64,000 bases of DNA from a bacterium. Its GTDB lineage: Bacteria > Sumerlaeota > Sumerlaeia > SLMS01 > JAHLLQ01. This document shows, piece by piece, positions 56,092 through 62,312 of the stretch. A model generated the notes under the pieces. It saw only the letters and a list, made by a program, of their open reading frames with translations. It was not told the origin of the DNA and did no database searches. The position numbers and the translations under genes are program-made. Where the stretch lies: positions 444,979 to 508,978 of the forward strand of contig JAHLLQ010000003.1 in NCBI GenBank assembly GCA_020444065.1, written 5' to 3'. Position 1 is the stretch's first letter; every line of letters begins with the position of its first letter.

Positions 56092-56757
56092 TCACCACGG
56101 CTCCGTGTTGTTCGTAAAGCCCGCGATGTCGCCGATGCTGACGGTGCCGTTCGTCGGGTCGTAGATCGTGGAGATGGGGGAGGCGTTTGGCAGGTAGGCG
56201 AAGTGCATGAAGAAAACGTCCTCCGGCAGCGCGGCGTAGCCGCCGAGGGAGTCTTCCAGGTCGGGCCCGACGGAGACGAGCGCGGCCAGCGGCACATTCA
56301 GCCGCGGATCGAAGAACTTCACCGCCGTCGAGGGATAGTGGATGTAGAGCAGCGAGTAATCGCCGTTGTCCAATGTTCCGTTCGGATCGACCACTCCTGG
56401 ATTTGCAGCAGGGATTTGCTGCAGGAAAGAGTACATTTTCTGTGCACCGAACGGATCGCGAAACGCGGACGGGCCGATGTATGAAACCGGCGTGGTGAGG
56501 GGAACGAGCTGCTCCGAGGCAAGAATTCCAAGAGGATCAGTTGGGAAGATCGGCTGCGCCGCGGGGAAGCGGTTGTGATCGACATAGAAGGACATCAGCC
56601 CCGTTTTGCCTGTGCGGATGTTGCCCTTCGCGGCGCTGACCTTCGCGCGCGTTTGGGCCTCGAGGAAGTTTGGCACCGCGATCGCCGCCAGAATCGCGAT
56701 AATCGCGACAACAATCAGTAGCTCGATCAGGGTGAATCCAGAGCGTATTCTTCGCAT
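56092..56757 (-). CDS. Type IV pilin-like (prepilin) protein, second copy, in an ECF sigma operon
   Basis: A 221-aa prepilin with very short leader RRIRSG before FTLIELLIVVAIIAILAAIA and VPNFLEAQTRAKVSAAKGNI. The C-terminal domain differs from the copy at 45404 but ends the same way, with STIYDPTNGTVSIGDIAGFT. ATG 56757 shares a base with the stop of the FecR gene (TGATG), so translation is coupled; ATG 56775 is an in-frame alternative. It is the third gene of a sigma-FecR-prepilin unit, which suggests that sigma/anti-sigma signalling controls it. Confidence 0.9.
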   Translation of the reverse strand: MRRIRSGFTLIELLIVVAIIAILAAIAVPNFLEAQTRAKVSAAKGNIRTGKTGLMSFYVDHNRFPAAQPIFPTDPLGILASEQLVPLTTPVSYIGPSAFRDPFGAQKMYSFLQQIPAANPGVVDPNGTLDNGDYSLLYIHYPSTAVKFFDPRLNVPLAALVSVGPDLEDSLGGYAALPEDVFFMHFAYLPNASPISTIYDPTNGTVSIGDIAGFTNNTEPW

Positions 56758-57527
56758 CACTGGGTTGTGCTCCATCCAGAGGGGTAGCGTTGCGCCGCGG
56801 CGTTTTTCATAAACTCCTCCTGCAAGTCCCGCACCCACGCGGGCACGTCGGCGACCTTGTCCGCGACGATCGGCGGACGGTCGGCTTGTTCGACGAGGGC
56901 GCTCTCGCCCGGCGACAGCGTCTGGCGCGAGCTGCCGGCCTCCAGGCTGATCCGCCCGGATTGCAGGATCACGCGCGTTCCGCCAGAGCCGTGCGAGACG
57001 CCGAACTTCGTTCCCTGCACGGTGACGCGAGCGTTGGGCGTGGTGACTTCGAAGAAGCCCGACTCCGGCTCCACGTTGACCCAAAGGTCACCGTGTTCGA
57101 GTCGCAGGCGATCTTCGCCGACGATGTCCAGTTTCGAATCCGCCGCCAGCAGGACCACCACGCGGCCGTCGTCCAATTGCGCGATGGCCTTTCCGTCGGC
57201 CTTTGTGGTGATGGAATCGCCTTCACGCAGAACCTTCTGCGCTCCTTCCACGCTGCCGGCAGCATAGAGCAGATCGGCGCGTTCCCGGCCGTACTGGCGA
57301 ATCAGAACGATGCCCGTCGCCATCAGCATCAGGACGGCGGCGATGCCGACCCAACTCTTCCAGCCGATCGGAATCACGCGCGCCTTGGGCGCGGGCGCTT
57401 TCTCGGCCTCTTCGCGCAGCGCATCCTTCATCCGCATGGAGAAGCCCTTGGACGGGCGGGATTCCTGCGCCCATTCCTCAGCGGCGCGCTCCAGGAGGCG
57501 CTCGGTTTTGTCGCGGTTGTCAGTCAT
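56757..57527 (-). CDS. FecR-type transmembrane anti-sigma/signal protein
   Basis: A 256-aa single-pass protein. Cytoplasmic N-terminus of about 50 residues (NRDKTERLLERAAEEWAQES) for sigma-factor contact, one helix (WVGIAAVLMLMATGIVLI), then a periplasmic FecR domain: LREGDSITTKADGKAIAQLD, GRVVVLLAADSKLDI, LEHGDLWVNVEPESGFFEVT, PNARVTVQGTKFGVSH and RVILQSGRISLE. ATG 57527 overlaps the sigma gene end by 8 bases. FecR proteins relay outer signals to ECF sigma factors; no TonB-dependent receptor accompanies it here. Confidence 0.9.
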   Translation of the reverse strand: MTDNRDKTERLLERAAEEWAQESRPSKGFSMRMKDALREEAEKAPAPKARVIPIGWKSWVGIAAVLMLMATGIVLIRQYGRERADLLYAAGSVEGAQKVLREGDSITTKADGKAIAQLDDGRVVVLLAADSKLDIVGEDRLRLEHGDLWVNVEPESGFFEVTTPNARVTVQGTKFGVSHGSGGTRVILQSGRISLEAGSSRQTLSPGESALVEQADRPPIVADKVADVPAWVRDLQEEFMKNAAAQRYPSGWSTTQ

Positions 57528-58116
57528 TGAGCAAATCCTCCATCTGGACCCCGCGTTCGTCGAACCACGCGCGAATATCGCGCAGACCGCGGGCCAGGAT
57601 TCCTCCGATCGTGCCCTGGGGGATGCGCAGGACATCGGCGATCTCGCGGATCTTCAGGCCGGCGAAGTACTTTAGCGCCACGGCTTCGCGATCCCGCGGG
57701 GGGAGGGAAGCGACGGCGTCCTCCAGCCACTTGCGGCTTTGGCCTTCCAGAATGCGGGAGCCCTGGCGCGCAGGCTCGGGCGAATCGGGGGCCTTTTCGC
57801 CGAAGCTGAACTCGCGGTTCGTGCGGCCTTTCTCGTATTCTTTCGCCAGGCGCCGCCGCAGGATCGTGAACAGCCACGCACGCAGCGTCTCGGCCGATCG
57901 CGCCTTCTCCCGAGACCGAAAGGCCTCCAGGAACGTGTCCTGAACGATATCCTCCGCCGTTTCCGTCTGAAACGTGTGGAGCCGCGCGTAGTGAAAGAGC
58001 TGCATCCCGTAAAGATCCACCATATACTCTGCCGCCTCGCTATCGCCTTGGCGAAAGCGCTCGAACGTGCCCTGGTCCATCTGCGGAGCGGGCGATTCGT
58101 GCGGCGATTGATTCAT
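57520..58116 (-). CDS. ECF-type RNA polymerase sigma factor
   Basis: A 198-aa sigma-70 family factor with only regions 2 and 4. Region 2: FERFRQGDSEAAEYMVDLYG, ETAEDIVQDTFLEAFRSREK, LRAWLFTILRRRLAKEYEK. Region 4: LEDAVASLPPRDREAVALKY and FAGLKIREIADVLRIPQGTI, the helix-turn-helix that reads the -35 element. ATG 58116 is preceded by AAAGGGA. It leads the FecR and prepilin genes with overlapping ends, and is divergent from the cupredoxin gene, 120 bases away. Autoregulation of both from the shared region is plausible. Confidence 0.93.
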   Translation of the reverse strand: MNQSPHESPAPQMDQGTFERFRQGDSEAAEYMVDLYGMQLFHYARLHTFQTETAEDIVQDTFLEAFRSREKARSAETLRAWLFTILRRRLAKEYEKGRTNREFSFGEKAPDSPEPARQGSRILEGQSRKWLEDAVASLPPRDREAVALKYFAGLKIREIADVLRIPQGTIGGILARGLRDIRAWFDERGVQMEDLLND

Positions 58117-59097: not shown

Positions 59098-62000
59098 TCA
59101 GCGCGCGGCCACTTCCACCGCATCCTCTGTCGGTGCTTCGGCGGGGGGGCAGTAGACGCGCCAGCGGCCGGGGCCGGCGGTGGCGTCGAGGCCGGCTTCG
59201 AGCAGCGGGCACACAGTGATCTTGCGGCCGGCGATGCGTTGGTAGATGCGCGGCGGGTCGAGCGGTTCGCCGCGGAGCCGCAGGCCGGTGTGGCCTGGGA
59301 AGTCCTTCAACAATGTCAGCAGTCGCTTCAGGTGTTTGCCTTCGAGACGGCTGACATCGATCTCGAGTTCCGTGGCGCGTTCGGCGCGAATCACACACGC
59401 TTCGAGCGTTTCCGCAGCGTGTGCGCGCAGCACCCATTGGAAGTCTTCGCGGCGCAGGCGTCCGGTGACGACAACGAGGCGACCGGCGAGATTGTCCGAC
59501 GTCAGGAACTGCGCGCGCGCACCGGAGGCTTCGATCAGACATCCGGCCAGATCGGCCAGGCACTCGTCGTCCTCTTCCTTTTCCACGGCGTCGATCGTGC
59601 CGACCAGGCAAACGTCCTGGCCTCGATCGCGGAAGGCCAGATCGCGCGGCGGGCGCAGTTGGGCGCGTTCGATGAAGTCTTCGTGCAGCAGCAAGGGGTC
59701 GATGGCCGTTTCGAACCCGAGAACCTCGCGCTCTTCTGCCGCGAGCCACTCCTCGGTTTCTGCTTCCGGTTCCGCGATGACCGGTCCCCCGTCTTCCTGA
59801 TTCTCCAGCCACCATTCCGTGCCGTGGCCGAAGAACTGCAGCGGATCTTCCGTAGCCGAGCGACGCCGACGCGGGCGCAGCAATCCATCGAGCTTTTCGA
59901 GCTGCGCGAGCAACTCCTTGCGGCTCTCGCCGACGGAGTCGAGTCCGCCCGCGCGGATCAAGCGTTCGATGTGGCTGGTGCGCAGGCGACGGGGATCGGT
60001 GCGGCGCAGCAGGTCGGCCAGATCGTTGTAGGTCATTTCGCGCCGAACGGTTTCCAGTTCATCCGCGGCCATCTTGGAGAAGCTGTCGATCGCCTGGAAG
60101 CCGACGCGCACGGCGTTGTCTTCGGGGGCCCATCGCCAGGTGGAACAATTCAGATCCACGGGTCGGATTTCGATACCGAGCGCGCGCGCTTCGCCGAGCA
60201 GTGCCGTGCGCCGACGGCCGTCATCGCCGGCATCGCTAAGCGCGGCCGCCAGGTACGCGGACGTGTCGGTGGCCTTGATGCCCGCGCAGGAGTGGGCCAT
60301 CAGCAAATCGCCGAAGTCGACGCTGCGCCTCTTGGTGTTCAGCACGCGGATCAGGCTCGTCAGGTCCGACGGCTGCAGCTTGCGCAGGCGCCGCTTCACC
60401 GTCGGCGGCTCCAGGATCGAGATGCCCTGGGTGTTGCCTTCGCGAATCAGTTTGTAGGTCTTCGGATCGTCGTGCGGGATCGATTCGGGATCGAAGTGCC
60501 GGTTGCCCTGCTCCCGAACCCAGCGCGTCGCCTCATCCACCAGGTCGAGCATTCGCGAGTGGCTGAGCGCGATGCGGCTGAAGCCCGCGCCTTCCAGCGC
60601 TTCGGCGTCCCACTGGCTGACAACACCGCCGCCCGGCAGCGCCGTGCGAGGCAGGGTCTTCTCGATCGATTCGACGCAGAATGTGAATTCGTTCTCGACC
60701 GGTCGCAGCATTCGCGCGCGCCCATCCAGCCGGCGCGTCATCCACGCGAGCGCCCGCACATCCGTCAGCAGCAGATCGGGATCCGGTTCTTCGTTCGGCG
60801 GGGCCAGATCGGCCGCCTCTTTCGCGGTCGTCCACTCGGTGCTGCGAACCAGGTGGCGCGCGCGCTTGCTGTCCATGCCGGCCAGTTCGAGCGTGCGCTC
60901 GAGCGCCGCCGACGTCGTCCAGCGCTTCCATTTGCCGACCGACACGACGCGGCCTTCGAACAAATCGTCCAGCGCCTGAACGGCCTCGTCGGCCTGCGTG
61001 CGCGGGACGCAGAACTCCAATAGCGGGAACTGGCGTTCGGTTCCTTCGGGCAGTGCGAACGGCAGATCGAATCGCAGCGGATCGACGCGGGTCAGGCCCA
61101 GCAGCGACGCAATAAGGCTGTTTGTCAGGAAGCCGGCTCCCGGACCGCGCAGCACGCCGCGATCGCGGAACTCTTCGTTCAATCGCGCCAGGCAGACGAT
61201 GGCCGGCGCCAGCCCGGCCGCTTCGATGTCGCGGAATTCGCGATTCAGACGTTCGCGCCACCTGCTCGGCAGATCGCCGTACCGCTCGCCAGCCACGGCA
61301 AAAACCTGGTTCCAGATAAACGACTCGGCATCCACGCCGCGGCTGAAATCGAATCGCGGAAAGCGACGAGCGGCGCGCGGCAAATCGAAATCACAAAGGC
61401 CGGCCACGCGGCCAGTGTTCTCGATGGCTTCGGGGTAATCGGCAAACCACTCGGCAATCGCTTCGGTGCTGGCGACATGGGCGCGCTCATGCAGCGGGCG
61501 CTGCAACTCGCCGAGCATTCGCGGGCGATTCGGCAGGTCGACGACTTCCTGGCGGTAGAAACGCCACGCCGCATCATCCTCCGGTCCCGCGCAGTGAATC
61601 TCCGGCACAGCCACGGGGGCCAGTTCATAGTGCGCTGCCACCGCCCACAGACCCTTTGCGGCGCGCTTGCCGATCTCCGGCGTGGGCGCGGGCAAGGACA
61701 GGAAAATCTGTTCCGCGGGGACCGCGCTCAGCAATCCGTCGACGAACGTTTCGATCTCTTCGACGCATTTGCCGAGAACGAGTTCGGTGAGTTCGCCCTT
61801 TTCGCCGCCGACCAGGTAAAGCAATCCGGCGGGTTCAGCCAGCAACTCCTCCCACGTCAGGTGCGCGGGAAAACGCTCCAGCACGCGATCCTGCCCGCGG
61901 TTCACCAGCGCGACGAGGCGTTGCCATCCCGTCTGATCCATCGCGAGCAACCGCACGCGCATCGTGCGGCCTGCGAATGTGTCTGTCCCAAAGGGGAGCA

Positions 62001-62211
62001 CTTCGACTTCGAGACCCAGGATCGGCTGGATTCCCAGGCGTTTTGCCACGGCCACGAACCCTGGGGCTCCAGCCACGGTCATCGTGTCGACCAGCGCCAT
62101 GGCGTCCTGGCCGTGCCGCACGGCCGCACGGCACAAATGCTCCACGCGCGCCAGGCTCTCGCCCAGGCTGAAATCGCTTCGCCCTCCAAGGTGCACGAAT
62201 CGGTCGAACAT
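59098..62211 (-). CDS. DnaE-like (DNA polymerase III alpha) paralogue lacking catalytic residues
   Basis: A 1037-aa protein that keeps the DnaE scaffold: an N-terminal PHP-like domain, RGPGAGFLTNSLIASLLGLT (355-) with VDPLRFDLPFALP in the palm, the fingers region (IPHDDPKTYKLIREGNTQGI), a helix-hairpin-helix region (IEIRPVDLNCSTWRW, VGFQAIDSFSKMAADELETV) and an OB fold (about 870-960, VCLVGTIDAVEKEEDDECLA). All three polymerase aspartates are missing. The PDxDxDF site reads QFPLLEF (394-400), and the later KFDFLGL block reads RIALSHS (545-551). The PHP metal motifs are also lost: HLHxHS reads HLGGRS, and LTDH reads LVDT. The frame is intact, so it is more likely a structural or accessory protein than a decayed gene. 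No imuA/imuB or lexA is adjacent. Confidence 0.85.
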   Translation of the reverse strand: MFDRFVHLGGRSDFSLGESLARVEHLCRAAVRHGQDAMALVDTMTVAGAPGFVAVAKRLGIQPILGLEVEVLPFGTDTFAGRTMRVRLLAMDQTGWQRLVALVNRGQDRVLERFPAHLTWEELLAEPAGLLYLVGGEKGELTELVLGKCVEEIETFVDGLLSAVPAEQIFLSLPAPTPEIGKRAAKGLWAVAAHYELAPVAVPEIHCAGPEDDAAWRFYRQEVVDLPNRPRMLGELQRPLHERAHVASTEAIAEWFADYPEAIENTGRVAGLCDFDLPRAARRFPRFDFSRGVDAESFIWNQVFAVAGERYGDLPSRWRERLNREFRDIEAAGLAPAIVCLARLNEEFRDRGVLRGPGAGFLTNSLIASLLGLTRVDPLRFDLPFALPEGTERQFPLLEFCVPRTQADEAVQALDDLFEGRVVSVGKWKRWTTSAALERTLELAGMDSKRARHLVRSTEWTTAKEAADLAPPNEEPDPDLLLTDVRALAWMTRRLDGRARMLRPVENEFTFCVESIEKTLPRTALPGGGVVSQWDAEALEGAGFSRIALSHSRMLDLVDEATRWVREQGNRHFDPESIPHDDPKTYKLIREGNTQGISILEPPTVKRRLRKLQPSDLTSLIRVLNTKRRSVDFGDLLMAHSCAGIKATDTSAYLAAALSDAGDDGRRRTALLGEARALGIEIRPVDLNCSTWRWAPEDNAVRVGFQAIDSFSKMAADELETVRREMTYNDLADLLRRTDPRRLRTSHIERLIRAGGLDSVGESRKELLAQLEKLDGLLRPRRRRSATEDPLQFFGHGTEWWLENQEDGGPVIAEPEAETEEWLAAEEREVLGFETAIDPLLLHEDFIERAQLRPPRDLAFRDRGQDVCLVGTIDAVEKEEDDECLADLAGCLIEASGARAQFLTSDNLAGRLVVVTGRLRREDFQWVLRAHAAETLEACVIRAERATELEIDVSRLEGKHLKRLLTLLKDFPGHTGLRLRGEPLDPPRIYQRIAGRKITVCPLLEAGLDATAGPGRWRVYCPPAEAPTEDAVEVAAR

Positions 62212-62312
62212 CGGATGCGCTCGTCAGCAGGATTGCCGTGGGGAGAACGCCACAGTCACGCCCTCCGCGATGACGTGTCGCGCGGAACAATGTCAACAAC
62301 CGAAGTGCATGT

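Follow-up and report, generated by a model that had tools for sequence, protein, structure and literature searches.

A polymerase-dead DnaE paralogue conserved across the bacterial class Sumerlaeia

The window, a 64,000-nucleotide stretch of a Candidatus Sumerlaeota genome, encodes a polymerase-dead DnaE paralogue of 1037 amino acids (59098..62211; this gene and all features described below lie on the minus strand). The open reading frame runs from an ATG at 62211 to a stop at 59098 through 1037 uninterrupted codons. The protein matches the NCBIfam model of DNA polymerase III alpha (PRK05673, E 2.9e-86), and a sequence profile search against the PDB retrieves PolIII alpha of Taq (E 4.6e-49). 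Pfam domains above cut-off are PHP, DNA_pol3_alpha, a partial finger domain and HHH_6, and PHP, Pol3 and tandem HhH occur in the order typical of C-family, DnaE-type polymerases. The scores lie below the equivalog and superfamily cut-offs of NCBIfam for DnaE1 (290 against 1002 bits for PRK05673 and 251 against 434 bits for TIGR00594). The 5.2 Mb host genome is 97% complete and carries elsewhere a separate canonical DnaE1 of 1186 codons with intact palm (DDDD) and PHP (HHDHEHCDH) residues. Downstream of the dead gene (56092-58116, minus strand) are genes that by eye resemble those of a type IV pilin, a FecR-like protein and an ECF-like sigma factor.

The N-terminal PHP domain spans residues 1-275 (61387..62211; Pfam and ligand alignment). 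Helix-hairpin-helix domain HHH_6 is retained at residues 679-767 (59911..60177; Pfam), as is an OB-fold region at residues 831-945 (59377..59721), delimited by the predicted structure and the conservation profile. A C-terminal domain (CTD) at residues 946-1022 (59146..59376), placed by the model and the conservation profile, completes the protein. An AlphaFold2 model built from 14 sequences (mean pLDDT 86.8, pTM 0.77) contains the HhH, OB and CTD regions. Its best match in the PDB is Taq PolIII alpha (E 8e-57), followed by the M. tuberculosis and E. coli alpha subunits, and the PolIII alpha fold is thus predicted to be kept.

Catalytic residues were mapped by aligning the protein in MAFFT to E. 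coli DnaE and to the host DnaE1. E. coli D401, D403, D405 and D555 correspond to L397, E399, C401 and A548. The PDxDxDF motif with the first palm Asp pair reads QFPLLEF (residues 394-400, 61012..61032), and KFDFLGL with the third Asp reads RIALSHS (residues 546-552, 60556..60576). The catalytic set D401/D403/D555 is therefore replaced by L/E/A, and it is absent from all members of the class. No substitute Asp pair was found near the palm sites, either in the window protein or in ten orthologues of its order. Nearly all dead relatives likewise have Arg in the place of Arg546, the counterpart of E. coli K553. The nucleotide-binding motif GPGRGS has become GPGAGF (residues 356-361, 61129..61146), with F361 where the GS pair had its Ser; GPGAG does not vary within the window's order. 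The nine PHP ligands HHDHEHCDH read GRDTERGEH, which destroys the metal site. Both His residues of the former HxH motif are lost (HLGGRS, 62176..62193), and the former TDH motif keeps its Asp and loses its His (LVDT, 62083..62094).

The palm and PHP losses fall exactly at the motifs that the preliminary description had quoted as erased. Its statement that the protein is full-length does not hold, since the alignment reveals a deletion it had overlooked: 118 residues equivalent to E. coli 637-754, which make up most of the fingers, have been lost at the junction of residues 626 and 627 (60333..60334). The deletion is common to the Sumerlaeia relatives that were aligned across the fingers. A shifted alignment that hides intact Asp residues, which would have undermined the claim, is ruled out by eleven orthologues and by class-wide alignments, where none was found at displaced positions. 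Judged by its residues, the window protein is excluded as a polymerase because several independent changes coincide (palm Asp, GS motif, fingers), and as a PHP nuclease because most metal ligands are lost.

A degenerate clamp-binding motif, PLQFF (residues 790-794, 59830..59844), aligns with E. coli QADMF (920-924). Compared with the QL[SD]LF-like pentapeptide expected after the HhH domain, it is hydrophobic at positions 4-5 and lacks the first Gln. Across Sumerlaeia this position ends in LF or FF in nearly all copies, and several read QATLF, QFTLF, QLTLF or QLQLF. Exceptions are G029, with no recognisable motif, G015 and G016 (VQMQL and VQMQF) and G003 (PLEFL). Because the window motif is degenerate (PLQFF without the first Gln), clamp binding by the window protein is no more than plausible. 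At the sequence level, the protein keeps the domain layout of DnaE, PHP through to OB and CTD, together with the hydrophobic clamp-motif position.

Orthologues with 39-45% identity and the same losses occur in 11 of the 12 genomes of the window's order. In Sumerlaeia, a class of uncultured bacteria, full or near-full relatives are encoded by 35 of 39 genomes, and one more carries a fragment. Every genome of the class that is at least 90% complete has a dead DnaE, in one case solely as a fragment, and those without a copy do not exceed 82% completeness. The single genome from another class of the phylum (87% complete) encodes canonical DnaE only. Since none of the 35 copies keeps the catalytic Asp pair, chance loss is excluded. 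Both HxH His residues and the TDH His are gone in all 11 orthologues of the window's order. Several other Sumerlaeia families retain 7-8 of the nine PHP ligands next to a dead palm, and the most parsimonious order of events is loss of polymerase activity followed by loss of the PHP site. The same profile applied to 346 genomes of other phyla, with the best two candidates per genome scored, recovered mainly ordinary DnaE, which matches the profile over about residues 2-621 only.

The dead DnaE is under purifying selection, which is strong by codon-position differences. The one unsaturated pair of dead genes, G015 and G016 (89% identity), gives dN 0.065, dS 0.59 and a ratio of 0.11, with no sign of relaxed selection; three other pairs gave no estimate, as expected with synonymous saturation. 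In G009 and G010 (84% protein identity), 119, 86 and 502 differences fall at the three codon positions, and third positions dominate in the other dead-gene pairs as well. In the same seven genomes the mean identity of the dead protein is 44%, against 64% for DnaE1. Conservation of the Asp-bearing segments is half that of DnaE1 in this set, and the N-terminal palm (palm-N, here 276-345) and the CTD reach the DnaE1 level. Together, the conserved losses and purifying selection support the preliminary description's proposal of selection for a non-enzymatic role.

In the tree, the dead proteins of Sumerlaeia constitute a single clade (SH-aLRT 100) that falls on the DnaE1 side, apart from DnaE2. As in DnaE1, the OB region and CTD follow the clamp motif, and the exact placement is unsure because the branches are long. 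The gene would have originated as a DnaE1-like duplicate before Sumerlaeia diversified, and then have been kept as a structural protein.

A conserved promoter-like element, TTGACATTGT (62287..62296), precedes the start codon by 85 bases. Elements of this TTGAC type lie 66-94 bases upstream in 10 of 10 orthologues, with TCTTGACANNGT as the order consensus and commonest form. The 8-mer TCTTGACA is common to 8 of the 10; shuffled sequences attained a maximum of 5, once in 200 trials. The same TTGACA-like element also lies upstream of murA and ftsZ, both recognised by sequence alone. For this reason the idea that TCTTGACANNGT marks a repair regulon was rejected; it looks like a housekeeping -35 and argues for housekeeping expression. 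The dead gene would be expressed constitutively, although TTGACA is a common -35 and no -10 box is recognisable with it. No conserved dyad was found upstream of the gene.

A direct repeat, TTCRC-N6-TTCGC, precedes lexA in all eight genomes tested (once with a mismatch) and also the genome's own dinB. It is probably the LexA operator of the window's Sumerlaeia order, and occurs upstream of lexA at L178-L189 and of dinB in two genomes (L129, L127). Upstream of the dead gene the box is absent in 8 of 10 orthologues, and the other two have at best a copy with one mismatch. Immediate neighbours vary by genome and are mostly metabolic, envelope and regulatory genes, with none conserved. A scan of 20 neighbour proteins likewise yielded no conserved operon partner, with the single exception of G032, where the dead gene lies tail-to-tail with a PolY-DnaE2 operon whose DnaE2 is intact. 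PolY also adjoins an intact long DnaE2 (1189-1305 amino acids) in family f13 (L082:2839-7602, L146, L147), forming a PolY-DnaE2 module.

We favour, with moderate confidence, a housekeeping, clamp-tethered and non-catalytic DnaE scaffold near the replication fork. The window protein would sit on the sliding clamp and DNA via its FF motif, HhH and OB domains. The unusually constrained palm-N (276-386) and CTD could serve to bind a partner, which most likely belongs to the replisome, for instance active DnaE1 or the clamp loader DnaX. On this reading the protein would be a lasting scaffold or placeholder for housekeeping replication or repair, and not part of an SOS-induced mutasome. The preliminary description had suggested a scaffold in repair or mutagenesis; its non-enzymatic scaffold stands, and mutagenesis appears less likely than housekeeping because the dead gene has neither a LexA box nor conserved repair neighbours.

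The main rival casts the protein as an organiser of the ImuB kind in an error-prone mutasome: after damage it would hold the clamp and pass the primer end on to DnaE2 or a Y-family polymerase. Such an organiser is expected to bind RecA/ImuA and a polymerase as well as the clamp. In favour of this rival, bacteria have their classic dead polymerase in ImuB, the clamp-motif position is retained, 37 of 40 genomes encode a PolY, and in G032 the dead gene lies beside PolY and DnaE2. However, most orthologues lack the operator that is found at lexA and dinB, neighbours are not conserved outside G032, and the window's order showed no DnaE2, which is therefore not an obligate partner; we regard this rival as unlikely. 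Less probable still is an ancestor with PHP phosphoesterase or nuclease activity for which the dead polymerase body provided a platform on DNA, comparable to noncanonical PolX; the window's order would later have lost the activity or changed its substrate. The experimental precedent of noncanonical PolX speaks for it, as do the Sumerlaeia families with a nearly complete PHP site and dead DnaEs of about 925 amino acids from a second class that keep HHDxEHCNR or similar. The original role may have involved a phosphoesterase, because several other families of the class still have part of the PHP site. For the window protein itself such a function is very unlikely, given the three His losses throughout its order.

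Two further explanations have very little in their favour. The preliminary description had named frameshifts in close relatives as a sign of decay, and a decaying pseudogene could account for the faster evolution relative to DnaE1 and for 2 of 35 class copies that are split between frames (G021, L097:7791-10703; G038, L103:7212-10854). Both come from fragmented MAGs, and the splits reflect either assembly errors or local decay. The remaining 33 have an unbroken frame as far as contigs reach, and we reject a pseudogene, a scarcely credible reading that is refuted by class-wide conservation, with near-universal presence and purifying selection. A still active enzyme whose acidic residues have moved or been substituted could point to E399 in place of D403, a position that is Glu in 10 of 11 members of the order. 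It is extremely improbable, as the equivalents of D401 and D555 are almost all non-acidic and variable within the order, and neither the GS serine nor the fingers remain.

Among known systems, the closest is DnaE1 of E. coli and Thermus aquaticus, which shares the fold, the domain order PHP-palm-thumb-HhH-OB-CTD, the clamp-motif position and the tree branch. The window protein differs by the absence of the palm Asp residues, PHP metal site and fingers, and is only about 20% identical. Like DnaE2/ImuC, it is an extra, non-replicative DnaE with a degraded PHP domain. DnaE2 keeps the palm Asps and fingers, whereas the window protein shows the reverse, with a CTD and a position on the DnaE1 side of the tree; DnaE2 never has a CTD (Timinskas 2013, PMC3919608). 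The window gene also has neither the ImuA/ImuB/PolY operon nor the LexA control of DnaE2/ImuC. ImuB is likewise a dead polymerase with a clamp-binding motif, which in the window protein is degenerate. It belongs to another polymerase family (Y) and sits in a LexA-regulated cassette (PMC6511836), a context that the window gene lacks.

The preliminary description had offered ImuB as the precedent for inactive paralogues, which is apt, and others are known from the B and X families. In archaea, inactivated polymerases of the B family (PMC2527604) are an ancient conserved paralogue with dead polymerase and nuclease sites and a proposed structural role, and the C-terminal half of Pol epsilon (PMC2669801) is described in the same terms. 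They share with the window protein the state of a conserved, doubly dead paralogue, but belong to the B family and other domains of life. The noncanonical PolX of bacteria (PMC9226535) combines palm substitutions and palm and finger deletions with a retained, active PHP nuclease. Substitutions, deletions and a PHP domain recur in the window protein, but PolX is of the X family and its PHP is live; the window's GRDTERGEH is not, and other Sumerlaeia families come part of the way.

For DnaE, the preliminary description knew of no inactive paralogue, and this holds in the literature searched, including two C-family surveys. The 2013 survey discarded fragments whose active site was not intact and describes the Asps as absolutely conserved (PMC3919608); a 2026 survey marks dead Y-family groups and reports no dead C-family group. 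A phrase search of 5.39 million papers, few of them preprints or from subscription journals, found no dead DnaE family. Inactivated polymerase paralogues are thus a known kind, and the window gene is the first C-family example that we could find.

Another palm-dead DnaE was found outside the phylum, in G210. Its class, unrelated to Sumerlaeia, holds at least three palm-dead DnaE groups (L165-L174, L221-L241, L152-L154). Palm sites read EEEH and EDDH in the f173 pair and EEQD in the f266 group. The group of about 925 amino acids (f263/f267) combines a dead palm with the mostly intact PHP site mentioned above; it occurs in 21 of 155 genomes searched, all in two families and all without the Asp set. 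In this and the f266 group, a near-consensus clamp motif (QFSLF, QLSLF, QLELPF) stands at or close to the C-terminus of most proteins. Intact DnaE1 was verified in several genomes of this second class. All dead groups cluster in one tree with support of 90, or 98 without the f173 pair, which may reflect common ancestry or long-branch attraction.

We tentatively propose, at somewhat less than an even chance, that palm-dead DnaEs constitute an unrecognised fifth C-family group: ancient, present in at least two unrelated classes, and serving as a clamp-bound structural subunit of the fork, the counterpart of the inactivated archaeal B-family polymerases and Pol epsilon. A dead DnaE that is near-universal in one class and recurs in another shows that a part of the replicase can be retained for a purpose other than synthesis. 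A structural job at the replication clamp, if this is what it does, is undescribed for the DnaE family. The system offers a direct test of whether an inactivated polymerase serves as an architectural subunit in bacteria, as with eukaryotic Pol epsilon. One dead relative exceeds the cut-off of NCBIfam TIGR00594 (454 against 434 bits), so homology-based annotation can mislabel such proteins as polymerases.
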